DNA of 56,864 bases, taken from positions 1-56,864 of the forward strand of contig CALKGQ010000016.1 of assembly GCA_938085425.1 (NCBI GenBank). Reading direction: 5' to 3'. A program made the translations under genes and the position numbers. Position 1 is the first letter of the stretch, and every line of letters begins with the position of its first letter. The notes beneath the pieces were generated by a model that was not told the DNA's origin, made no database searches, and saw only the letters and a list, made by a program, of their open reading frames with translations. Below, piece after piece: positions 2 through 12,464 of the stretch. This DNA is from an uncultured Flavobacteriales bacterium. GTDB taxonomy: Bacteria > Bacteroidota > Bacteroidia > Flavobacteriales_D > Sanyastnellaceae.

Positions 2-3000
2 GTTGAGGCGACTTATAGCTTGACGAATGATTGTACTCTTTTGATTGATTTTGATGGGGACATATATGCCTTTGTTTTGGTGGACGATGAATGGGTAGAC
101 TCCTACTGTGTGCCAGATTTTTCATGCTTGAATTGTCTGCCTACAGGCTCAGCTGGTTCATGGAGCGAGAGAGTTGGTCATCCGTCAGCAGAGATGTCTC
201 AAGGCTTGTGCATTACTTTAACTCCTTCTGAATGTTCAGTTCCATGTGAAACCTGTGAAACCGCGTTGACTTGGAATCAAGAGCTCAGCGACGACACGGT
301 CGAGTGCGTTGAAGATTTGCCCATGACTTGCGAGGACTTCACAACTGGTCTCATGGCCATCAATGAGTGTGACGGTTCAGAATACGAAGCCGTGTGCACG
401 CCATTGCTTTCTTTGGACAACCAAGAAGTTTCCTCTGGCGTGGCCACGACGGCCAAGCGCGACGACAATCTTGGAGATGGTGAATACGACTACAACGATG
501 CAGCCATCCGCCTCTACGGTTTGTCTGCTTCCGGAATTGCAGACAGCGACTACTTCGTGGAAGACCCTTCTGCTCCTTTGTCTTGGAACTACTACCCTGA
601 GTCGGGCACAGCGACTTTGACCGGACGGGTTTACTGCCGTGAGAACAGTGCCCGGTGGTTTGATTTGAACGCGGCCTTTGAGGATGCGTTGAACGCGCAA
701 GACTGGATGGATCTTGATTCTGACAACACATTGCTCGTGAACACAGACCCCAACAATCCCGGGTCCACCTGCGACTACGACGCAGAGAACATGACGGTCT
801 TTCTCATGCAGCCTGGCAGCAGCTACTTGCTGGCAGATGGCGAATCGAATGAATTCAATGGTTTGATCGGACTCGATCACATGCCACTCTCTTTGAACAA
901 GCGTTTCCAATACGGTCCCCAAGCCAACAACCACAACTGCGGTTATGGATTGGGTGGGTGGTTCCGTTGGGACGGTGTCTTGAATGGAGAAGAAGTATCA
1001 GGTTTCTCTGGCGACATTGTCGTCGACATCGAAGAGAGCTCCAACGATGCTTCCTGCTCGGAGAGTGCGTGCTTCGATTACACGGCCCTAGATTTCGGTT
1101 GCGGCCGTGCCTTGACCGAGCGTTTTTGTGTGAACCGCGAGGACACAACGCCTCCTGTGATTTCCGATGGCCCAGCGGACGCCACCGTAGAGTGCGATGC
1201 AGTGCCTGAAATTGCGGGAACAGATGCCATCGTTGCGACGGACAATTGCTCTGGTGATTTGACCTATGAGGAAGGAACAGAGCTTCGCATCGACGGAGAT
1301 TGTCCCTCGAATTACGTTTTGATTCGGAAGTGGGATGTGACGGATGCGTGCGGTTTGACATCAACTTGGACGCAGAACATTCAAGTTCAGGACACGTCTT
1401 CGCCCACTTTCTTGTTGGAGGCGGCCGATTTGAGCATCGAGTGCAGTGCCTTGGGGGACAGCGACCAGCTCAATGCATGGCTGGCAAGCCATGGAGGCGC
1501 CTCCGCAAGCGACAACTGTGGAACTGTTTCCTGGAGCAACAACTACTCAGAATGCACGGATGATGAACGTTCATTCAACAGCTACAAGCAGGGCACATGG
1601 GGAGGCAGCAACAACGTAGCCTCGGAGCTGATGGACGACAATTTCGATTCTGTCTTCCCGGAGGGTGTCTCGGTCGGGTGCGATGAACTCAGTATTGATT
1701 TCACAACTTCCGAAGCTGTGGACATCTACTTGCCTTGTCAAGGCAATGCAGCCGATTTGGTGTTGACCCATGGAGGTCAAAACCCAACGGAGGCCGCCAC
1801 CGACCCTACATGCTGGAACAATGCCCTGGTCTCACACCTGCTCACGGCAAAGCTGAATGTTGCCTTTGACGCTGCATTCGACGAATTCAGTCTTTCCGAC
1901 ATTGCATTTGGAGACTTGCTCGTTGCCTCCGGCGCATTCGAAGGAAAGAGTGTGGATGAGGTGATTCAAATTTCAGATGAGGTTCTTGGAGACTGCAACA
2001 ATGACTTCACTCCCTCTCAGTGTCGATCAACCTTGAGGGACATCAACAAAAACTTCAGTCCAAGCGAGAACGACCGGGGTTATTTGATCGTTCCTGGCTG
2101 TTGGACTTCGGATTGCGGCCAAACAGGAATGGCCATTGTGACATTTACAGTAGAAGACGAATGTGGAAACAGCAGCAGCAGTACCGCAACATTCACCATC
2201 CAAGACACCACATTGCCTGAGATTGTTGCAGAGTCCAGCATCATGGTCGACTGCGAAGCATACAACGTGGAGGTAGGGTACGCGACGGCTTCAGACGCTT
2301 GTGGAAATGCCTCTTTGACATGGGTTGACGCCCAAGCAAGTGGCGGTTGCATTACGCCAATTGGCGCCTACATGCGTACCTACACGTCGGTGGACGATTG
2401 TGGCAACACAAGCATCTTTGAGCAGTCCATTGTTCTCACAGACGATGAGGCACCTCAGTTTGAGGACTCCGCCGAAGACTTGACTGTGGAGTGCGACGGG
2501 TTGGGCAACATGGATGATCTCAACACGTGGTTGGCGTCCAATGGTGGTGCAACTGCCATGGATCAATGCAGCAACTTCACTTGGAGCAATGACTATGATC
2601 CTGCCAACTTTGTGGCGGGTTGCAATTTGACAGGATCTGTGACTGTCACCTTCACGGCCACTGACGATTGCGGCAACCACGATGACACGATGGCCACCTT
2701 TGCCATCGCGGATGAAACGGCTCCAGAGTTCGACTTTGTTCCCGGGGATGCCATTTACGAGTGTGATGAGGACATCACCTACGAAGACGCAACTGCCACG
2801 GATGCCTGTTCTGAGCCTGTTGTGACTGTTGTCGCTGACACCACGACGGGTGCTTGCCCTCAAAGTTTTGTCATTCAAAGAACCTTCACGGCCACTGACG
2901 CTTGCGGGCTTCAAACCACGGCCGTCCAGAGCATCACAGTGCAAGACACAACCGACCCTGTTTTGACAGAGGGAGCGATGTCATCGACTGTCGAATGTGA

Positions 3001-6000
3001 TGGTGCAGGAAACGAGGAAGCCTTCAACGCTTGGCTTGAAGGCCATGGCGGTTCGACTGCAACAGACAACTGTGGCTCTTTGACATGGAGCAACGACTTT
3101 GGCGGTGAATTGCAGGACCCCTGTGGAGCTTCAGGCTATGCAGATGTCACTTTCACCGCGACAGACGATTGCGGAAACGATGTTTCCACATCGGCGCGCT
3201 TCACCATCGAAGACACCACTGACCCTGTATTTGAGCCGTTCATGTCCACCATCATGGTGGAATGCACAGACGGCGACTACAGCAGCCCTGACTACCAGCC
3301 TTTGACTGCCACGGACGATTGCAGTGGTGTGGAGTACGAGATTGAAAGCATTTGCATGTCAGGAGGATGCTTGTGGACGGTGATGCGGATGTGGACGGCA
3401 ACAGACGATTGTGGCAACTCAACGACGGTGGAGCAATTCATCATGTTGATCGACACAACTGCACCTGTGGTGACTGCTCCTGCCCCTTACAATGTTGATG
3501 CAGATGCAGACGACTGTTCAGCAGACATCTCAGCAACTGCAGACGTTGCTGGAGTGGCCACTGTCGAAGACAACTGCGGCAGCCAAGATTGCTGGGGCAT
3601 GGAGTCCATCACGGTTTGGAGTGAAGATGCTGACCTTGAAGTCATTTGCGGTTACGACATGGAGGACCAGGGTTCACGTAGCATTGTGCGGACATGGTAT
3701 GCCCAAGACCGTTGCGGCAACATTGGACAAGACACCCAGATCATCACGATTTCTGATGTCACCCCTCCAGTGGCGTCTGTGACGGATGCGTCTGTGGCTT
3801 GCGCCGATTACGATCCAACAGCGGAGTACGGAACGGCCATGAGCACTGACAACTGTGCGGCCCTGCCTAACTACACTTGGGTCAATACAGAAACCATTGC
3901 TGGTGATTGTGCTGGTGATTACACCGTGAAGCGCACGTACACCTTTGTGGACGACTGCATGAACACCGTCGATGTCATTCAAACCATTTCTGTGTTTGAC
4001 GATGTGGCACCAGTCATTTCTGGCGAAAATGAGGTGACGGTCGAATGTTCGGGAGATTATGCCACCACCAACTATGTCACGGCTGAAGATGCATGTGGCA
4101 GTGGAGTCAACATTTCTTTCGTGGACGTGCAGGTTTCGGGTGGATGTGTGCAGCCTGTAGGCAGGTACCAGCGCACCTACACGGTCACAGATGATTGCGG
4201 CAATTCGGACACCTTCGAGCAGTTCATTCTCCTCGAGGATTCCATGGCTCCTGAGCTCAACATCCCTGCTGATTACACGGTTGAGTGCCATGTACCAGTC
4301 ACATACGACGACGCTTCAGCAACGGACTTGTGTGATGGCGACGTGCATGTGGCTTATTCGCAGGATACAATTCCTGGGGATTGCGCTCAGGCTTTTGACA
4401 TCCAGCGGACTTGGACTGCCACGGACGACTGTGGAAATGCAGAGACGAAAACCCAAACCATTTCGGTGGTGGACACCACAGCTCCTGAGTTGACCATCCC
4501 CGACGATTACACTGCCGAGTGCAGTGAGGCACATCCTCTTGAGGACGCCTCCGCCACAGACAATTGCGGCATGGTCTCTTTGGACATGGTGGCTGATACG
4601 GTCTATGGTGACTGCGCTCAGTCCTACGTTGTCACGCGAACATTCACTGCAACAGATGAGTGCGGAAATGAAACAGAACGTGCTCAAGTCATCACCATTG
4701 TGGACACGACCGAACCAATGTTCAACGAGGCTTTGCCGCTGAACATGACTGTGGAGTGCGACGATGTGCCGGCTGCCTCAGTGTTGACGGCCACAGACAA
4801 CTGCCAAGATGTCGAGGTGATGTACAGCGCAGAGGAGACACCGGGCGACTGCACAGGCCGTTACACCATTGTTCGGACTTGGACGGTCGAAGACGACTGC
4901 GGCAATGCCAATGCGCATACCCAGACGCTGACAGTTCAAGACACCACAGCTCCAGAATTGACTGTCCCTGAGGATTACACCGCAGAGTGCAGCGACATGC
5001 ACCCTCTCGAGAACGCTTCCGCTACCGACAATTGTGGAACCTACGAGATTGTGGTGGTCGCGGACACACTGCAAGGGACATGCTCTTCCAACTATGTTGT
5101 AACACGGACCTTCACCGCCACAGACGACTGTGGCAACGCGGCGTCAGATGTCCAGGTCATCACCATCCAAGACACCACCGGTCCCGTGATTGTAGCTGAA
5201 GCTGAAGTCGAGATTGCATGCGGGGACTACGACCCCGAGCAGTCTTTTGCCTCGGCAATAGACAATTGTGGCGACGTTGATGTGACTTGGATTGACTCCG
5301 ATGGAAGCGGAGGATGCGTGCTCCCTGTGGGCCGCTACAGCCGTGTCTATACAGCAACCGACGAGTGCGGGAACATCACCACAGCCGGGCAGATTCTGAC
5401 GTTGACAGACGATGTCGATCCAGAATTCACCAGTGTACCAGCGGGTGCGACGTACGAGTGTTTTGAAGACATCGAGTACCTCGATGCCACCGCCACTGAC
5501 AACTGCTCAGGAGCGACCGTTGCAGTCGTAGCGGACACTGTGTTCTCAAGCGATTGCATGCAAACGTTCACCATCACACGGACCTTTACGGCAACTGACA
5601 ACTGTGGAAACAGTGCAACAGCGACTCAGGTGATTGAAGTTCAAGACACAGAAGGACCAGACTTCACCTTCGTGCCTGAGGACTACACGGCGGAGTGTTC
5701 AGATGAATTGAACCTTGCCGATGCGATGGCCACCGATCACTGTTCCATGGTGAACATCGAGGTGAACACCACAGAGATTCCAGGAACTTGTGAAGGCCAA
5801 TACACCATTCTTAGGGAGTTTGTCGCGACAGACGATTGTGGAAACCAGGCGTCACAGACCCAGGTCATCACGATCCAAGACACCACGGCTCCTGAATTGA
5901 GCATCCCGGAGGATTACACTGCAGAGTGCAGCGACGAGCACCCTCTAGAAGATGCTTCCGCCACGGACAACTGCAGTATGGTGTCGATTGTCATGGATGC

Positions 6001-7507
6001 CGATACGGCAGCCGGTGCCTGTGACCATTCCTATGTGGTGACACGCACGTTCACAGCCACCGATGCATGCGGCAACAACACGTCGCTGTCACAGGTCATT
6101 ACGATCCAAGACACGACGGCTCCTGAATTGACCATTCCTGCGGATTACACTGCAGAATGTGATGAGGAGCTTGTGTTTGACGATGCGTCTGCTTCAGACA
6201 ACTGCGGCATGGTGAGCATTGTGCTCGAGGAGACAACGAACAACACGGATTGTGCCCAAGAGTACAGCATCGTTCGTACGTTCACGGCCACCGACGAATG
6301 TGGCAACATCAGTGTGGCTGCACAAACCATCACGGTGGAAGACACCACTGATCCTGTGATTGCAAGTGCAGGTGGTTTGATGAATGGTCAAGTGATTGAA
6401 GTTTGTTGCGAGTCGCTTGAAGGAGGAATCACTGTGCCGGAGGCGGTGACGTTGAGCTTCACCGACAACTGTGATGACGCAGCCAACCTCGATTACAACG
6501 AAGAGTGCATTGGTGGCAACTGTCCGACAGCCGATGTAGAGAGCTGGTGCGAGGTGCTGAATCCTGCGGTCATGCCTGATGGAGAGACCTGTGACAACTA
6601 CTCTGTTCACAGTATGCGTCTCTTCAACTTCCCAGGTTCCGAGTTCTACACCACAATTGAAGGCCGCGTGGCCAACAATGTGGATGGGACGAAGACCTAC
6701 ACGATGACCGTCGTTTCTTCTGACAACGACGAGGCAGGTTGGGAAATCACCAACAACTATTCGGCACCGATGTCATGGGAGGATTGGATCGCTCAACCAG
6801 GAAGCCAGAGCTACAAGTCAGATTGTGGTTTGGGTGACCACACCGAGTGGATGTACACGATGCTGACCAGCGGAAGTGCCACAGGTTGGGGGGATTACGC
6901 AGGTTCAAGTTTGACCTTCAACCATCAGCCAGCTTCAGGATACTTCGGGTTCCAAATCGGGGAGGGCGCCAACAACAAGAACGGCAACTACGGATTCAGT
7001 GCTTGGATGTACTACAACGGAACCTTCGATGGTTCTCCCGTGAGTGGGTCTGGTGATGTGTTCGGCGATTTGGACTGTTGTTTGCCATACGATTTGTCAC
7101 GGAGCTATGTCGTGACGGATTGCGCAGGGAATGACACTGAGTTTGGATACACTGTTCGCATGACAGGTGAAGACTGTGCTTCCGGTGATGCTGGAGACAT
7201 CAGTGATCCTGAGGATTCCGATTTGACCTTCGTCAAGGACTTGGTGAAAATTGCAAGCTTGCAGCCGAACCCGACGTCTGACATGTCTACGCTCGTGTTG
7301 ACAACGGAGGAGCCTTCCTTGCAAGTGGAAGTGACCGTGATGACCATGACCGGTTCCACGGTGATGACACTCTACAATGGGCCTGTTGTGGCTGGATGGC
7401 CAACCACCATTGAGGTGCCAGCTTCCCAATTGGAATCAGGTATGTACCAAGTCAAGGCCCGTGCCAAGACCTATGTGACTACGAAGAAATTGTTGGTGGC
7501 CAACTAA
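2..7507 (+). CDS. Giant secreted HYR-like repeat protein with T9SS sorting domain (5' end cut by window)
   Basis: The frame is open from the first bases of the window. The first possible start is TTG at 20, with no signal peptide after it, so the true N-terminus lies upstream. Counting from that TTG (2495 residues), there is a Cys-rich N-terminal domain (about 85-345) and roughly 19 tandem units of about 72-90 residues (about 385-2110). Each unit carries a pattern like VEC ... TDNC ... GxC ... TDxCGN ... QDTTAPE, so three or four Cys per unit. A second unique domain (about 2130-2385) follows, then a type A T9SS C-terminal domain (about 2410-2495) starting LQPNP and ending KKLLVAN. Unit 2 is interrupted by an unrelated module of about 180 residues. 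The repeats resemble HYR/Ig-like adhesion repeats. A cell-surface or released adhesin or matrix protein is inferred; no enzymatic domain was recognised. It is paralogous to the next gene. Confidence 0.85.
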   Translation, partial: VEATYSLTNDCTLLIDFDGDIYAFVLVDDEWVDSYCVPDFSCLNCLPTGSAGSWSERVGHPSAEMSQGLCITLTPSECSVPCETCETALTWNQELSDDTVECVEDLPMTCEDFTTGLMAINECDGSEYEAVCTPLLSLDNQEVSSGVATTAKRDDNLGDGEYDYNDAAIRLYGLSASGIADSDYFVEDPSAPLSWNYYPESGTATLTGRVYCRENSARWFDLNAAFEDALNAQDWMDLDSDNTLLVNTDPNNPGSTCDYDAENMTVFLMQPGSSYLLADGESNEFNGLIGLDHMPLSLNKRFQYGPQANNHNCGYGLGGWFRWDGVLNGEEVSGFSGDIVVDIEESSNDASCSESACFDYTALDFGCGRALTERFCVNREDTTPPVISDGPADATVECDAVPEIAGTDAIVATDNCSGDLTYEEGTELRIDGDCPSNYVLIRKWDVTDACGLTSTWTQNIQVQDTSSPTFLLEAADLSIECSALGDSDQLNAWLASHGGASASDNCGTVSWSNNYSECTDDERSFNSYKQGTWGGSNNVASELMDDNFDSVFPEGVSVGCDELSIDFTTSEAVDIYLPCQGNAADLVLTHGGQNPTEAATDPTCWNNALVSHLLTAKLNVAFDAAFDEFSLSDIAFGDLLVASGAFEGKSVDEVIQISDEVLGDCNNDFTPSQCRSTLRDINKNFSPSENDRGYLIVPGCWTSDCGQTGMAIVTFTVEDECGNSSSSTATFTIQDTTLPEIVAESSIMVDCEAYNVEVGYATASDACGNASLTWVDAQASGGCITPIGAYMRTYTSVDDCGNTSIFEQSIVLTDDEAPQFEDSAEDLTVECDGLGNMDDLNTWLASNGGATAMDQCSNFTWSNDYDPANFVAGCNLTGSVTVTFTATDDCGNHDDTMATFAIADETAPEFDFVPGDAIYECDEDITYEDATATDACSEPVVTVVADTTTGACPQSFVIQRTFTATDACGLQTTAVQSITVQDTTDPVLTEGAMSSTVECDGAGNEEAFNAWLEGHGGSTATDNCGSLTWSNDFGGELQDPCGASGYADVTFTATDDCGNDVSTSARFTIEDTTDPVFEPFMSTIMVECTDGDYSSPDYQPLTATDDCSGVEYEIESICMSGGCLWTVMRMWTATDDCGNSTTVEQFIMLIDTTAPVVTAPAPYNVDADADDCSADISATADVAGVATVEDNCGSQDCWGMESITVWSEDADLEVICGYDMEDQGSRSIVRTWYAQDRCGNIGQDTQIITISDVTPPVASVTDASVACADYDPTAEYGTAMSTDNCAALPNYTWVNTETIAGDCAGDYTVKRTYTFVDDCMNTVDVIQTISVFDDVAPVISGENEVTVECSGDYATTNYVTAEDACGSGVNISFVDVQVSGGCVQPVGRYQRTYTVTDDCGNSDTFEQFILLEDSMAPELNIPADYTVECHVPVTYDDASATDLCDGDVHVAYSQDTIPGDCAQAFDIQRTWTATDDCGNAETKTQTISVVDTTAPELTIPDDYTAECSEAHPLEDASATDNCGMVSLDMVADTVYGDCAQSYVVTRTFTATDECGNETERAQVITIVDTTEPMFNEALPLNMTVECDDVPAASVLTATDNCQDVEVMYSAEETPGDCTGRYTIVRTWTVEDDCGNANAHTQTLTVQDTTAPELTVPEDYTAECSDMHPLENASATDNCGTYEIVVVADTLQGTCSSNYVVTRTFTATDDCGNAASDVQVITIQDTTGPVIVAEAEVEIACGDYDPEQSFASAIDNCGDVDVTWIDSDGSGGCVLPVGRYSRVYTATDECGNITTAGQILTLTDDVDPEFTSVPAGATYECFEDIEYLDATATDNCSGATVAVVADTVFSSDCMQTFTITRTFTATDNCGNSATATQVIEVQDTEGPDFTFVPEDYTAECSDELNLADAMATDHCSMVNIEVNTTEIPGTCEGQYTILREFVATDDCGNQASQTQVITIQDTTAPELSIPEDYTAECSDEHPLEDASATDNCSMVSIVMDADTAAGACDHSYVVTRTFTATDACGNNTSLSQVITIQDTTAPELTIPADYTAECDEELVFDDASASDNCGMVSIVLEETTNNTDCAQEYSIVRTFTATDECGNISVAAQTITVEDTTDPVIASAGGLMNGQVIEVCCESLEGGITVPEAVTLSFTDNCDDAANLDYNEECIGGNCPTADVESWCEVLNPAVMPDGETCDNYSVHSMRLFNFPGSEFYTTIEGRVANNVDGTKTYTMTVVSSDNDEAGWEITNNYSAPMSWEDWIAQPGSQSYKSDCGLGDHTEWMYTMLTSGSATGWGDYAGSSLTFNHQPASGYFGFQIGEGANNKNGNYGFSAWMYYNGTFDGSPVSGSGDVFGDLDCCLPYDLSRSYVVTDCAGNDTEFGYTVRMTGEDCASGDAGDISDPEDSDLTFVKDLVKIASLQPNPTSDMSTLVLTTEEPSLQVEVTVMTMTGSTVMTLYNGPVVAGWPTTIEVPASQLESGMYQVKARAKTYVTTKKLLVAN

Positions 7508-7531
7508 GGCAAGCCGGCAAGATTCATAAGG

Positions 7532-7562
7532 AAAGCCGCCCTTTGGGGCGGCTTTTTTTTTT
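7532..7562 (+). terminator. Rho-independent terminator after the first giant gene
   Basis: A perfect 10-bp stem AAAGCCGCCC / GGGCGGCTTT with a TTTG-side loop runs into a ten-T tract. It lies 24 nt after the stop codon and separates the two paralogous giant genes into independent transcripts. Confidence 0.93.
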
Positions 7563-7706
7563 GCCCTGATCAGTCGTTTCTCGGGACTTGGCAATGTTGG
7601 GGGTGATAACACATATAATCATTTGGACATAACGAGAGCTTGGTCGTTCTTTTGTTCCCTGACGTGTGTCAGAACTGTTGAATGTTTCTTAACCCATCCT
7701 TTTTCG

Positions 7707-10700
7707 ATGAAAAAGCTGTTATCTCTTGCGCTAGGGACAATGTTCCTTGTCGCTTCCTCCTTTGGAAATCTTGTCTTCGCCAATGGCATTGAAGACGCCT
7801 GTGACTCCACTTGTCCCTTGGTTTGGAACCAAGCCTTGGTGGACCAATCAGTGCAATGTGCTGAAGATTTGCCTACGTCGTGTGACGATTACTTGAATTT
7901 TTCAGGAATCGAGAATCTCAGTGCAATCAATGCATGTTCAAGTGAAGCGTTCCCGGTGTTCGCTTGTTTTCCTCTCGCCTCAGAGAGCGTTTCGGCACCA
8001 GTCACTTCATGTCTGGCGACCACAGCGAAGAGAGACAGTGAGTTGGCACCGGATGAGTATGCCGCTACCGATGGTGCCATCCGTCTTTACGGATTGAGTG
8101 CGATGGGCATGGCAGACAGCGATTACTTCGTTGAGGATCCTTCCAATCCGCTGCAGTTTCTTCACGCCCCTGACAGCCGCAGTGCGAGATTGACAGGGAC
8201 GGTTCATTGTGTGGCCAATGCAAATCAGATTTTCCACGTGGATGCCCGTTTTGTCAATGAGGACAATGCGATGGAGTGGCTTGCAGAGAGTGACGCGCAT
8301 ACGCTTCTCATTGGTGACGATCCTCAACAAACTGGCTACCAAACTTGTGACATTGATACCGCGGGAATCACGGTGTTTGATTTGCAGGCGTTGAGTCGCC
8401 TCGAAGGCGATGGCGAGTTGGAGGGCACGCTCTTCATTGACCACATGCCCATGTCCTACAGCAAGCGTTTCCAGCTTGGATTGGGCGCAAACAACCACAA
8501 CTGCAATGAAGGATTTGGTGGGTGGTTTCGTTGGGAAGGCATGTTGAATGGCGAAAGTGTCCAAGGATTGAGTGGTGACGTTGTTTTGGATTTGGCATGT
8601 TCAGCACCAGATTCAGAATGCAGCCAGTACGCCTCTTTCCTGTTTGAATCGATCGACGATTGTGGTCGAATCTTGTCGACTTCTGTCCTTGTGGACCGCC
8701 AAGACACTGAGGCTCCTGTGGTCATCTCAGGACCTGAGTCGTTGACTGTAGAATGCGACATGATTCCTGATATGGCCTCTGCTTCTTCAATTCATGCTGA
8801 GGACAATTGCGAAGGTGAACTGCACGTAAGCGAAGGGGTCGAAACGAGGTTCGATGGAGATTGTCCCAACCACTATGTCTTGAACCGTCGTTGGACGGTG
8901 ACCGATTTGTGCGGCAATGCCACGACACACGTGCAAAACGTGGAAGTACGAGACACCACCAATCCTGTGGTCAGTGGTGAGAATTTGGTGTTGGTGTCAT
9001 GTGAGGCTTTTGACCCTGACATGGCATTCGCCACAGCCACAGACAACTGTGGGATGGTGAGCCTGAGCTGGACAGATTTCGAGCAAAGTGGAGGCTGTGT
9101 GCTTCCGATTGGACAATTCAGCCGCACCTACACTGCGACCGACGACTGCGGCAATGCGTCGACGTTCGAGCAGATCATCACGCTCACGGACTCGCAGGCT
9201 CCAGAGTTTGACTCTGTTCCTGCCGATGCGAGTTACGAATGCGACGAAGAGATTGTGTATGAGATGGCGATGGCCTCGGACAATTGCTCAGGTGCCAGCG
9301 TCACTGTGGTCGCCGACACGGTTTTCTCAGAGCTGTGCATGCAGACCTTCACGATCACCAGAACCTTCACAGCCGTTGACAATTGCGACAATTCAGCGTC
9401 TGCTGTTCAAGTGATTGAGGTTGCGGACACCACGGCTCCTTCGCTGGAGATTCCAGCGGACTACGAGGCGGAATGCAGTGCCGCTCACCCCTTGGAGGCT
9501 GCGACAGCATCTGACAACTGTGGCCCCGTCACGATTGTCCTCACGGCGGACACGGTTGCAGGTGCTTGCGCCCAGTCTTACGTTGTGACCCGCACCTTTG
9601 TCGCCACCGACGCTTGTGGAAACAGCACTTCTGACGCACAAGTCATCACGATTGTGGACACCCAGGCTCCGATGTTTGTGGAGGAGCTTCCAGCCTCTTT
9701 GGAGGTGGAGTGTGACAATGTCCCCGCCGGGGCAGTGCTCACGGCAATGGACAACTGCCAGGATGTTTCTGTTTCCTACAGCGAAACACGTCTTGATGGC
9801 AGTTGCCCAAGCAACTACACCCTGACCCGCACCTGGACCAGCTCGGACGATTGCGGAAATGAGGTGACCCATGAGCAGATTGTGGGCGTTTCAGACACGA
9901 CTTCGCCTGAGTTCACATTTGTGCCTGCCGATTACACGGCCGAGTGCGACGAAGAGCACCCCATGGAAATGGCCACAGGCATGGACGTTTGCGGTGACTT
10001 TGAAATTGGGGTCACCGAGGTGGTCTCTTACGACTGTCCTCAGGGGTACACCATTGAGCGGACGTTTGAGGCTGTGGATGCATGTGGGAACAGCGCAAGT
10101 GCGATGCAGACCATCACCATTGTCGACTCTACCTCTCCAGTCATTGACGCCATTGAAGTGGTCATGATTCCCTGCGCGGAATACGACCCCTTGGCTGGCT
10201 TTGCGACGGCCACGGACAATTGCGGTGTGGTCTCATTGACTTGGGAGGACCAACAAACCAGTGGAGGCTGCGCCTTGCCCATTGGTCAATACGTTAGGGT
10301 TTACACTGCTGTCGATGAATGCGGCAATGCGAGCACTGTGGACCAAGTGTTGACCCTGGTGGACGATACGGCTCCGGAGTTCACCTTCGTTCCGGATGAC
10401 TACACGGCGGAATGCATTGATGCCCTCACGTATGAGGAGGCAGAGGCGACGGACAATTGTTCGGGCGTGACGATGACCCTCTCAGTGGACACCCTGTCCA
10501 CTGAGTGCGCGGGAACCTTCGACATCGTGCGCACCTGGGTGGCCACCGACAATTGCAACAATGCAGCCACAGCTGTTCAGGTGATTTCTGTTGTGGACGA
10601 AGAGGGACCTTACTTCACCTATGTTCCTGAAGACTACACTGCAGAATGCTCAGACGATTTGGTCCTTGAAATGGCAGAGGCAGTGGACCATTGCTCGTCA

Positions 10701-12464
10701 TTTGAAATTGTGGTCCAAACGGACACCCTTGAGGGGCCGTGTTCAGGTCAATACGTGATTTTGCGGGAATTCATTGCCACCGACGCTTGTGGCAATGCCT
10801 CCGAGACCACTCAAATCATCTTTGTGGAAGACACCACGGCTCCTGTGTTCACATTTGTCCCTGAGGATTACACGGCAGAGTGCAGCGACGACCAGCCGAT
10901 GCTGGACGCTGAGGCGATGGACGCATGCGGCATGGTCGACATTGTGCTCGATGAATCCACGGACTACAACGGCTGCTTGGCCTCGTACACCCTAACGAGG
11001 GTTTGGACCGCCACAGACGATTGCGGAAACAGCGCCAGCGCTTCACAAACCATCACCATTGAAGACACCACGGCTCCCGTCTTTGAGATGGTGCCAGAGT
11101 CTTACGCTCTGGAGTGCCTTTCGGATCCAGTGTACGATGAAGTCGTCGTCAGCGACAACTGCTCCGCTGTGGAATTGAGCCTTTTGGTGGACACCGTGTT
11201 CAGCGATTGTGAAAATGTGTACGACATCGTTCGCAGTTGGACAGCGTCCGATTTGTGTGGAAATGCCTCAGCGGTCAGTCAGACCATTTCAATAGTGGAC
11301 ACCACAGCGCCTCAACTCACCAGCACATGCGGGTTGATGAACCACGAAGTGGTGGAGGTGTGCTGTGAGACGTTGGATGGGACATTGACCATTCCAGCGG
11401 CGTGCGATGTGCAGTTCACAGACAATTGTGGTGGAGAGGCAAGTGTCGAACTTTTAGAAACGTACAGTGGGGCCTTTGCACCCACTTCTGAAATCGACCG
11501 CTATTGCGTCATCTCTGACCCACAGGCTCTGGCCAATGGTGAGACCTGCGATGGTGACGCACCGACGTCCATGGAGCTCCTCAATTTCCCAGGTTCCAAT
11601 GCCTACGTGACGCTGAATGGGGCCGTTGCCCACATGGTGGATGGCACCATGACCTACACGATGGAAGTGGTGGCAATCGACAACCCCAATGCGGGTTGGA
11701 CAGTGGAAGCACACTATTCAGCCCCCATGGACTGGGAGGCTTGGACCGATCAACCTGGAACCCACAGCTACAAGTCAGATTGTGGTCTTGGAGACCACAC
11801 TGCTTGGGACTACGCCATGATGACTTCTGGCTTCGCAGAAGGCTGGGGGGAATATGAGGGCGACAGCTTCCAAATGATGCATCAACCGGCCAATGGATAC
11901 TTTGGTTTCCAAATCGGAGAAGGTGCAAACAACAAGAACAGCAACTACGGGTTCAGCGGATGGTTCTACCTGTCGGGCACAGTGGGAGGTCAAAATGTGA
12001 TGGCCTCCGGCGACCTCTTCGGAGAGTTGGATTGTTGCCAGCCTTGGACTCTTGAGCGTCAATACACAGTCACCGATTGTGTGGGCAATGAAACAAGCTT
12101 CTCTTATGAGATTCAAGTGACTGGAGTCAGCTGCAATGCCACCGAGGAAGGCGGGATTGCAGAAGGAGAGGATGCCACTCCAGTGTCGTTCAAAGACTTG
12201 ATTGAAGTCGTGTCGTTGCAACCCAACCCTGCTTCCACACAAGTGAACTTGACCTTGCTCAGCGAGGAAGTTGGCACAGACGTGCGCGTGGAACTGCATG
12301 CTTCGACGGGAGCAGTGGTGATGACTTTGTTCAATGGCATGCTTGTGGAAGGTGCTGCCACTCCGATTGATTTCAACGTGGCGTCTCTGAATGCAGGGAT
12401 GTACCAATTGCGTGTGACAGCCAAAAACTTCGTCTCGACGAAAAAGCTCTTGGTCATCGATTGA
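7707..12464 (+). CDS. Secreted HYR-like repeat protein with T9SS sorting domain (complete paralogue)
   Basis: This is a 1585-residue protein. The ATG at 7707 is chosen because it begins a clean signal peptide (MKKLLSLALG..., cleavage near residue 26); an upstream in-frame extension to 7623 lacks signal-peptide character. The order is: N-terminal Cys-rich domain (about 30-320) matching that of the upstream gene, 11 HYR-like units (about 345-1205) with conserved EC, DNC, GxC and DxCGN cysteines, a second unique domain (about 1208-1480), and a type A T9SS C-terminal domain (about 1500-1585) with LQPNP and terminal KKLLVID. Export by Sec and then T9SS is established for this sorting domain; surface adhesion is inferred. 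It is the short paralogue of the preceding gene (11 versus about 19 units) and is flanked by terminators on both sides. Confidence 0.9.
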   Translation: MKKLLSLALGTMFLVASSFGNLVFANGIEDACDSTCPLVWNQALVDQSVQCAEDLPTSCDDYLNFSGIENLSAINACSSEAFPVFACFPLASESVSAPVTSCLATTAKRDSELAPDEYAATDGAIRLYGLSAMGMADSDYFVEDPSNPLQFLHAPDSRSARLTGTVHCVANANQIFHVDARFVNEDNAMEWLAESDAHTLLIGDDPQQTGYQTCDIDTAGITVFDLQALSRLEGDGELEGTLFIDHMPMSYSKRFQLGLGANNHNCNEGFGGWFRWEGMLNGESVQGLSGDVVLDLACSAPDSECSQYASFLFESIDDCGRILSTSVLVDRQDTEAPVVISGPESLTVECDMIPDMASASSIHAEDNCEGELHVSEGVETRFDGDCPNHYVLNRRWTVTDLCGNATTHVQNVEVRDTTNPVVSGENLVLVSCEAFDPDMAFATATDNCGMVSLSWTDFEQSGGCVLPIGQFSRTYTATDDCGNASTFEQIITLTDSQAPEFDSVPADASYECDEEIVYEMAMASDNCSGASVTVVADTVFSELCMQTFTITRTFTAVDNCDNSASAVQVIEVADTTAPSLEIPADYEAECSAAHPLEAATASDNCGPVTIVLTADTVAGACAQSYVVTRTFVATDACGNSTSDAQVITIVDTQAPMFVEELPASLEVECDNVPAGAVLTAMDNCQDVSVSYSETRLDGSCPSNYTLTRTWTSSDDCGNEVTHEQIVGVSDTTSPEFTFVPADYTAECDEEHPMEMATGMDVCGDFEIGVTEVVSYDCPQGYTIERTFEAVDACGNSASAMQTITIVDSTSPVIDAIEVVMIPCAEYDPLAGFATATDNCGVVSLTWEDQQTSGGCALPIGQYVRVYTAVDECGNASTVDQVLTLVDDTAPEFTFVPDDYTAECIDALTYEEAEATDNCSGVTMTLSVDTLSTECAGTFDIVRTWVATDNCNNAATAVQVISVVDEEGPYFTYVPEDYTAECSDDLVLEMAEAVDHCSSFEIVVQTDTLEGPCSGQYVILREFIATDACGNASETTQIIFVEDTTAPVFTFVPEDYTAECSDDQPMLDAEAMDACGMVDIVLDESTDYNGCLASYTLTRVWTATDDCGNSASASQTITIEDTTAPVFEMVPESYALECLSDPVYDEVVVSDNCSAVELSLLVDTVFSDCENVYDIVRSWTASDLCGNASAVSQTISIVDTTAPQLTSTCGLMNHEVVEVCCETLDGTLTIPAACDVQFTDNCGGEASVELLETYSGAFAPTSEIDRYCVISDPQALANGETCDGDAPTSMELLNFPGSNAYVTLNGAVAHMVDGTMTYTMEVVAIDNPNAGWTVEAHYSAPMDWEAWTDQPGTHSYKSDCGLGDHTAWDYAMMTSGFAEGWGEYEGDSFQMMHQPANGYFGFQIGEGANNKNSNYGFSGWFYLSGTVGGQNVMASGDLFGELDCCQPWTLERQYTVTDCVGNETSFSYEIQVTGVSCNATEEGGIAEGEDATPVSFKDLIEVVSLQPNPASTQVNLTLLSEEVGTDVRVELHASTGAVVMTLFNGMLVEGAATPIDFNVASLNAGMYQLRVTAKNFVSTKKLLVID

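Follow-up and report, generated by a model that had tools for sequence, protein, structure and literature searches.

The closest described counterparts of the proteins reported here are RTX adhesins such as AhLap from Aeromonas hydrophila, FrhA from Vibrio cholerae and MpIBP. According to two papers (PMC12077191, PMC10865825), ligand-binding domains emerge in these adhesins from split Ig-like domains, a globular domain budding from an interrupted repeat near the end of a rod made up of a row of Ig-like units. They are type I secreted proteins with a retention domain, which is N-terminal in AhLap, and with heads that lie towards the C-terminus.

We describe two giant proteins of an uncultured marine flavobacterium, encoded by neighbouring surface-protein genes on the same (+) strand of a 56,864-nucleotide stretch of DNA, which is referred to below as the window. 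The two proteins share with RTX adhesins the row of Ig-like repeats and the globular domain that buds from an interrupted repeat near the rod end, but they differ in having a type IX sorting tail, in using the HYR repeat as the host, in a candidate head domain that is unlisted and in carrying the same type of head at both ends. Up to E = 1, neither the Pfam nor the NCBIfam matches of the two proteins include an RTX family, and the FrhA split-domain structure 9y9w gave a weak Foldseek match (E = 0.014, TM 0.17). Since the secretion signal differs, being a type IX tail of family TIGR04183, we do not regard these HYR proteins as RTX adhesins.

Neither domains nested in HYR repeats nor the present architecture turned up in the open literature searched, which leaves subscription papers mostly outside; this agrees with the original prediction, in which the architecture was not recognized as a described one. 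We note that a table of PMC9957290 places HYR repeats beside pfam11999. The proteins add an unlisted, predicted all-beta domain family that is nested and usually paired, and the same socket also takes other inserts. The display of heads from split domains, known from type I secreted adhesins, is suggested also for type IX fibres of uncultured marine Bacteroidota.

Two proteins with homologous end domains

The first HYR protein (positions 2–7507) is encoded by an open frame that extends from base 2 to a stop codon at 7507, and 2501 residues of it can be read; the contig and the window start at the same base, so that the 5' end of the frame is cut and the N-terminus of the protein is missing. 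An N copy of the end domain (437–1027) and a C copy (6545–7081), both placed by BLASTP, profile comparison and AlphaFold models, lie on either side of an HYR array (1142–6337; HYR_4C, PF23237, E = 4.9e-44) in which we count 18 repeats plus one that is split by another domain. The second protein (about 7707–12464) is apparently complete and begins MKKLL; its first residues, MKKLLSLALGTMFLVASSFGNLVFA, resemble a signal peptide by eye. It carries its N copy at 8010–8591, an array of 11 repeats at 8703–11294 and its C copy at 11502–12038, with HYR halves before and after the latter. Tandem HYR paralogues corresponding to window 2–12464 are also found in three other genomes of the genus (L031, L032 and L033); one copy is broken in L032, and one is cut by a contig end in L031 and L033.

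The repeat family itself is well defined, with HYR_4C scores of 148.8 and 143.2 bits in the two proteins against a cut-off of 27. HYR repeats are matched by the array repeats and, for most C inserts, by the two flanks once joined, and the HYR_4C model comprises 73 positions, thus leaving no room for an inserted domain. The LapB repeat NF033932 is also matched over its cut-off by part of the array of the first protein (76.3 bits against 45, residues 1703–1754). The second protein stays under that cut-off at 36.1 bits, and the match lies in the repeats and not in the end domains.

Each protein ends in a type IX sorting tail (7265–7498 and 12222–12455). With TIGR04183 the tails scored 29.5 bits in the first protein and 33.3 bits in the second against a cut-off of 23, and 23.3 and 27.5 bits in another run; with Pfam PF18962 (cut-off 27) the first falls just under at 26.2 bits and the second is over at 29.3 bits. 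A piece of SprA is present in the genome of the window, at a contig end, with a match over cut-off (E = 3.1e-168, positions 3–543 of 2319). Type IX export of these proteins is well supported by the tails over the TIGR04183 cut-off taken together with this SprA piece. Type IX substrates in general lose their sorting tail by cleavage and are attached to lipopolysaccharide through the C-terminus, which in these proteins would make the C copy the one proximal to the cell.

The original prediction was that the two end domains are homologous, and this is confirmed by both pairwise and profile comparisons. The motifs on which it rested were found in the N copy of the first protein (KRFQYGPQANNHN at 899–937 and GLGGWFRWDGVLNG at 947–988) and in its C copy (FGFQIGEGANNKN at 6944–6982 and GFSAWMYYNGTFDG at 6992–7033), and the second paralogue has the same two copies (KRFQLGLGANNHN at 8463–8501 and FGFQIGEGANNKN at 11901–11939). 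BLASTP aligned the N and C copies of the first protein over 56 residues (41.6 bits, E = 2e-9); in a second run the score was 41.2 bits, compared with a maximum of 23.9 bits for 500 shuffles of the C copy and of 15.0 bits for 39 pieces of the repeat array of the same protein. An alignment of 25 C copies (A1) compared with one of 24 N copies (A2) gave a profile–profile probability of 100% and E = 4.7e-45 over 155 columns. None of nine control profile comparisons gave a match, the best E value being 0.07; three of them used N profiles with shuffled columns, two used HYR, and the remaining four were made within the set of the two alignments and two further inserted domains. An upstream pairing of TLTGRVYC with TIEGRVANN that had been proposed along with the motifs is in the wrong register: alignment A3 pairs TLTGRVYC with TYTMTVVS, and the partner of TIEGRVANN is PSAPSWNYY, some dozen residues before that match.

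Residues that are invariant in all 31 rows of a mixed alignment (16 C and 15 N copies) include, in C numbering, W81, H127, P129, Q137, G139, N146, W154 and D171. Divergence is equal in the two copies, N being the less identical in 15 of 27 disjoint pairs. As both keep the same invariant residues and diverge equally, neither copy is decaying; the same 15 of 27 gives no support to a faster-evolving copy at the tip.

The domain itself has no counterpart in the family databases that were searched. The two window copies matched no Pfam or NCBIfam family up to E = 1 and nothing in PHROGs below E = 0.075. When 31 members were compared with Pfam, the best stray match was to an Egh16-like family (E = 6e-4, one member of the 31), and the Pfam and NCBIfam matches of the relatives fall in tails, repeats or neighbours only. 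Searches of the PDB gave no phmmer match to the C copy up to E = 10 and no profile match below E = 0.5. The avidin family is absent from the Pfam matches of the 31 members (up to E = 1) and from the PDB profile search (up to E = 10). Judged by these sequence comparisons, the inserted domain is an undescribed family, predicted to be all beta, that has no Pfam, NCBIfam or PDB sequence match.

Nesting of the end domain within an HYR repeat

In our interpretation the end domain is a unit of about 170 residues, all beta and probably a barrel, which is nested in a loop of an HYR repeat. The evidence for nesting is strong for the C copies; for the N copies of the window the models point the same way. 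On either side of the C copy in the first protein lie the two halves of the host repeat (6338–6544 and 7082–7168), identified by HYR model matches and by the joined-flank test described below. With an HYR model built from the repeats of the window, these flanks match HYR positions 25–49 and then 47–71 (E = 0.009 and 0.0009), and the flanks of the C copy in the second protein match positions 24–57 and then 47–76 (E = 0.05 and 7e-6). Around the N copies the same model finds faint pieces only (E = 0.16 to 0.64). The putative first half of the N host repeat in the first protein (257–436, start approximate) is placed by a weak match of HYR positions 12–37 to residues 97–128 (E = 0.64) and by alignments of cadherin and Ig chains to the model, and its second half (1028–1141) by alignment by eye and model comparison.

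A broader HYR model, built from 989 repeats, was compared with the joined flanks of 156 inserts, near-copies included. A single alignment of at least 10 bits spanned the junction for 85 of the 92 C modules and for 27 of the 64 N modules. The junction was still crossed in 48 C and eight N modules when the left flank was shuffled, a high count because the right HYR half scores well alone, and in three C and five N modules when the right flank was shuffled. The joined flanks of the window's own N modules scored 3.6 and 7.9 bits, and the sequence evidence for nesting of the N copy is weak in many members. A version of this test based on whole-sequence scores was dropped, since at 15 bits the reversed-order control reached 82 of the 156 inserts compared with 101.

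AlphaFold predicted both modules with high confidence: the C module with a mean pLDDT of 92.8 and a pTM of 0.85 (64 sequences) and the N module with a mean pLDDT of 91.7 and a pTM of 0.90 (36 sequences). The two predictions are not fully independent, as nine rows from N modules are common to both alignments. Both inserts are almost all beta in these models. The models were compared by strand strings and not by coordinate superposition; the three-state strings of the N and C inserts agree at 85% of 172 aligned residues, compared with at most 55% after circular shifting. The N model is matched by six solved chains of Ig or cadherin type over 76–81 residues, with the first aligned residue at 8–12 and the last at 306–308 (Z = 4.4–5.0). 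These end points, the only positions given for the alignments, indicate that residues from both flanks join in one domain, and the small number of aligned residues between them suggests that the barrel is skipped. In the C model the outer domain lies outside the rows spanned by most VIA matches (71–249).

The best matches of the models to solved structures are barrels of the porin, OmpA, streptavidin, PsbO and lipocalin types, with VIA Z scores of 5–9. The top match of all was a porin (N model, Z = 8.9). Streptavidin matched the C model with Z = 7.3 (r.m.s.d. 3.0, 107 residues aligned), tied with many unrelated barrels, and PsbO (Photosystem II chain O) matched the N model with Z = 6.9 (r.m.s.d. 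3.6, 122 residues aligned). The resemblance to avidin-, lipocalin- and PsbO-like barrels lies in all-beta models that match barrels; the differences are that there is no sequence match, that Z is under 8 and that Foldseek found nothing at E = 1e-3 or better with either model. A viral structure library likewise gave nothing at E = 1e-3. The VIA lists mix many unrelated barrels and Ig domains, and the absence of a family from them says nothing against it. The barrel likeness may reflect a common arrangement only, and we infer a closed barrel from the folds that were matched rather than from coordinates.

The end domain is not the only one inserted at this place. In the first protein a different domain of about 180 residues (1565–2104) is inserted in the same loop of another HYR repeat, with HYR positions 1–48 and then 46–77 on either side. 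Split HYR repeats in the same ORFs number 60 when the list is limited to splits between HYR positions 33 and 60, and comprise 46 with the nested barrel domain and 14 with other inserts. An unrestricted count also has 60 members, 54 of them shared with the limited list, and 53 of these 60 are split at HYR positions 42–53. By eye, the 14 other inserts fall into one type found nine times, one found four times (including that at 1565–2104) and a third found once. Four of these inserts, with every type represented, were scanned and none reached a Pfam or NCBIfam cut-off, and two inserts of the type found at 1565–2104 gave no match in either database up to E = 0.1. Profiles of two of the other types (eight and four members) matched neither the barrel domain nor each other in four comparisons. 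On profile comparison, then, the same HYR loop is host to at least three kinds of domain without detectable similarity, and nested inserts could for this reason be used to find binding heads in huge unannotated surface proteins.

We also note some details of these other inserts. The insert at 1565–2104 begins ERSFNSYKQGTWGGS, and relatives of it are seen by eye in HYR repeats of L055, L056 and L149. A nested insert of about 190 residues occurs at 9035–9682 of L126, with similar ones in L119, L124, L128, L130, L133, L142, L147 and L151; its motifs include GMSTYRIY, TSFYQ and YDSYVTIG. A domain that resembles it by eye opens the N-terminal parts of L035, L040 and L062.

Paired copies and their possible role

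Of the stretches that carry the domain, 40 were fetched first from the same family, and most large ORFs with one copy were found to have both an N-like and a C-like copy. A census of the loci fetched up to that point lists 145 ORFs with the domain, or 117 after the removal of repeats of the same ORF, with close relatives kept. Complete ORFs make up 56 of the 117; 46 of these have at least four HYR repeats, and the other ten are short or have no HYR repeats, none of them with two copies. Among the 46, two copies are present in 40 and one copy in six. Every one of the 55 two-copy ORFs, whether complete or cut, has 8–26 HYR repeats between the copies, 0–2 before them and none after. The second copy directly precedes the type IX sorting tail, with 135–152 residues following it in the 53 ORFs that are uncut at the 3' end. 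As most loci were found through the C copy, the census is biased towards proteins that have one.

Whole genomes allow a less biased count. In two near-complete genomes, G047 (one contig) and G048 (two contigs), matches grouped by open frame yield 13 barrel proteins, consisting of eight wide pairs with copies 4.2–6.2 kb apart, two adjacent pairs and three singles. Four of the eight wide pairs were fetched (L048, L049, L065 and L066), and all four have HYR repeats between the copies. The adjacent pairs, which do not bracket repeats, are at G047:C1:1897922-1899643 (protein of 5806 residues) and G048:C2:1661752-1663470 (4966 residues). The same survey took in four draft genomes (G000, G045, G039 and G107), and in G039 it shows several frames with a single copy, in some cases perhaps because of contig breaks.

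The six single-copy proteins of the census are of two sorts. In L032, L056 and L123 pieces of an N copy lie in a neighbouring ORF, which suggests that these genes are broken or misassembled. In L038, L055 and L058 the C copy is combined with other N-terminal parts, including choice-of-anchor L (L055) and FG-GAP repeats (L058). Two further paired proteins (L158 and L161) came from a second fetch, along with six in which a single copy is clear (L159, L160, L162, L163, L164 and L165), the single matches in L163, L164 and L165 being seen with the HMMER filters off. One of these, L160 (1581–8300, on contig C54 of the genome of the window), is an HYR protein of 2240 residues whose one copy is distant and N-like, a C copy being absent, and its C-terminal tail is of a different kind, type B-like by eye. 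Since adjacent pairs and singles exist, bracketing is usual and not obligatory. The view that one domain was duplicated to bracket the repeats is supported as regards homology and bracketing. The repeated unit is, however, nested in an HYR repeat (according to the model in the case of the window's own N copies) rather than being a free-standing end domain, and bracketing is not exclusive, given the singles, the adjacent pairs and the stand-alone relatives.

In our view, both proteins are probably rods exported by the type IX system that display two matched ligand-binding heads, the binding function being the conjectural part of this reading. The HYR repeats would build the rod of a secreted cell-surface fibre. 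The end repeats would be split domains, in which the chain leaves the Ig-like fold near HYR positions 46–53, folds into a barrel of about 170 residues and returns to complete the repeat; from this split arrangement the barrels would be expected to stick out sideways. One barrel would lie towards the far end of the fibre and the other next to the anchored end. The assignment of the nested domains as heads is made by analogy, and the barrels are candidates for a ligand-binding pair, with a glycan, a small molecule or another surface protein as the possible ligand, which might serve in attachment or cell–cell contact. A more speculative and rather doubtful extension is a matched two-ended device, in which the barrel at the far end of one fibre would recognize, on the fibre base of a neighbouring cell, either the barrel family or the same ligand, and in which the HYR loop would be a general socket open to unrelated heads. 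If so, these marine bacteria would be able to change what their surfaces bind by exchanging the domains nested in their giant type IX fibres.

Several other readings of the paired copies were considered. That the N and C barrels bind each other, either as an intramolecular clasp or as an antiparallel zipper between cells, would account for the presence of one family at opposite ends of the rod in 40 of the 46 complete HYR-rich ORFs, and it is in keeping with the equal divergence of the copies and with the correlation of N and C distances (r = 0.87 over 1485 pairs). Such a correlation is, however, expected from shared descent alone, and single-copy proteins exist, so that we think mutual binding unlikely. 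It is a little less likely again that the C copy serves type IX export or anchoring while the N copy is a leftover or a structural cap. In two-copy ORFs the second copy adjoins the sorting tail and is followed by no HYR repeat, a position that would suit such a role, as would the three proteins that keep a C copy behind other N-terminal parts. Nevertheless, the genome of the window has 49 sorting-tail matches (46 over cut-off) and only six matches to the domain, the N copies are as constrained as the C copies, and L160 has an N-like copy in the absence of a C copy.

The location of the barrels at both ends, with a variable number of repeats between them, could also mean that they are inert caps which protect or stiffen the ends of the array. 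This we consider improbable, as a domain nested in a loop leaves the repeat's own ends free, and the relatives in Alphaproteobacteria stand alone with a signal stretch and an anchor motif and have no array to cap. Lastly, the short span of the pairwise match (56 residues) might be put down to chance or to convergence of aromatic- and glycine-rich stretches, a reading given negligible weight in view of the profile match compared with its controls, the matching strand order and the far lower scores of the shuffles.

Descent and distribution of the domain

A quick tree was calculated from 87 inserts, taken from two-copy proteins and chosen outgroups after 119 rows had been thinned for similarity. 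All 39 C rows, together with a phage copy, fall on one starred branch, and the N rows form two sets, one of 28 and one of 11, that are separated by outgroups with weak branch support. An early duplication, with both copies inherited since, is the likely explanation of this pattern.

The search for other proteins that carry the domain, which the original prediction had put forward as a check, was made with the C domain of the first protein as the query, and 89 of the 114 genomes from the window's family had a match. Across the order 86 of 249 genomes have the domain, and across the phylum eight of 395, two of which belong to the family of the window. Named genomes were scanned with one peptide pattern, by which relatives lacking this motif would be missed, and 65 loci were found. 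The assemblies of 62 of them are titled Bacteroidetes, Flavobacteriales or Crocinitomicaceae, and the remaining three are from Marinicaulis, Roseobacter and a planctomycete. By sequence profile, distant relatives of the inserted domain are present in other phyla: the stand-alone proteins of Marinicaulis (L152) and Roseobacter (L155) belong to the same domain family, with profile E values of 1e-21 and 4e-15, but they differ from the HYR proteins in being small, at about 250–270 residues, in containing a single copy and no HYR repeats, and in ending with a VPLPA-CTERM tail.

Mobile elements were also searched. A first viral scan with a single-sequence query found no match. On a 175-kb IMG/VR contig, a protein (L156, 4185–5888) has HYR repeats (three Pfam stretches), a copy of the domain and a sorting tail over the TIGR04183 cut-off, and the contig has a match to the T4-type major capsid protein (PF07068, E = 2.3e-39). 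It seems that a phage carries a host-exported surface protein. The same IMG/VR record has a match to phrog_2, presumably a terminase family, at 124425–125717 (L167, E = 2.2e-42), which reads through four TGA codons and one TAA codon; perhaps the gene is broken or interrupted, or the match contains a gap. With the phage copy as the query no match was found in GenBank phages, and the Roseobacter copy gave one weak match among plasmids, in Aureispira (25% identity).

A paired protein from another family of the class, L158 (2378–11032, genome G432, 2885 residues), has two copies that bracket HYR repeats with no clear nesting. The first of these copies is close to the N-terminus and next to repeats in which a likeness to the DUF7467 repeats of L075 can be seen by eye.
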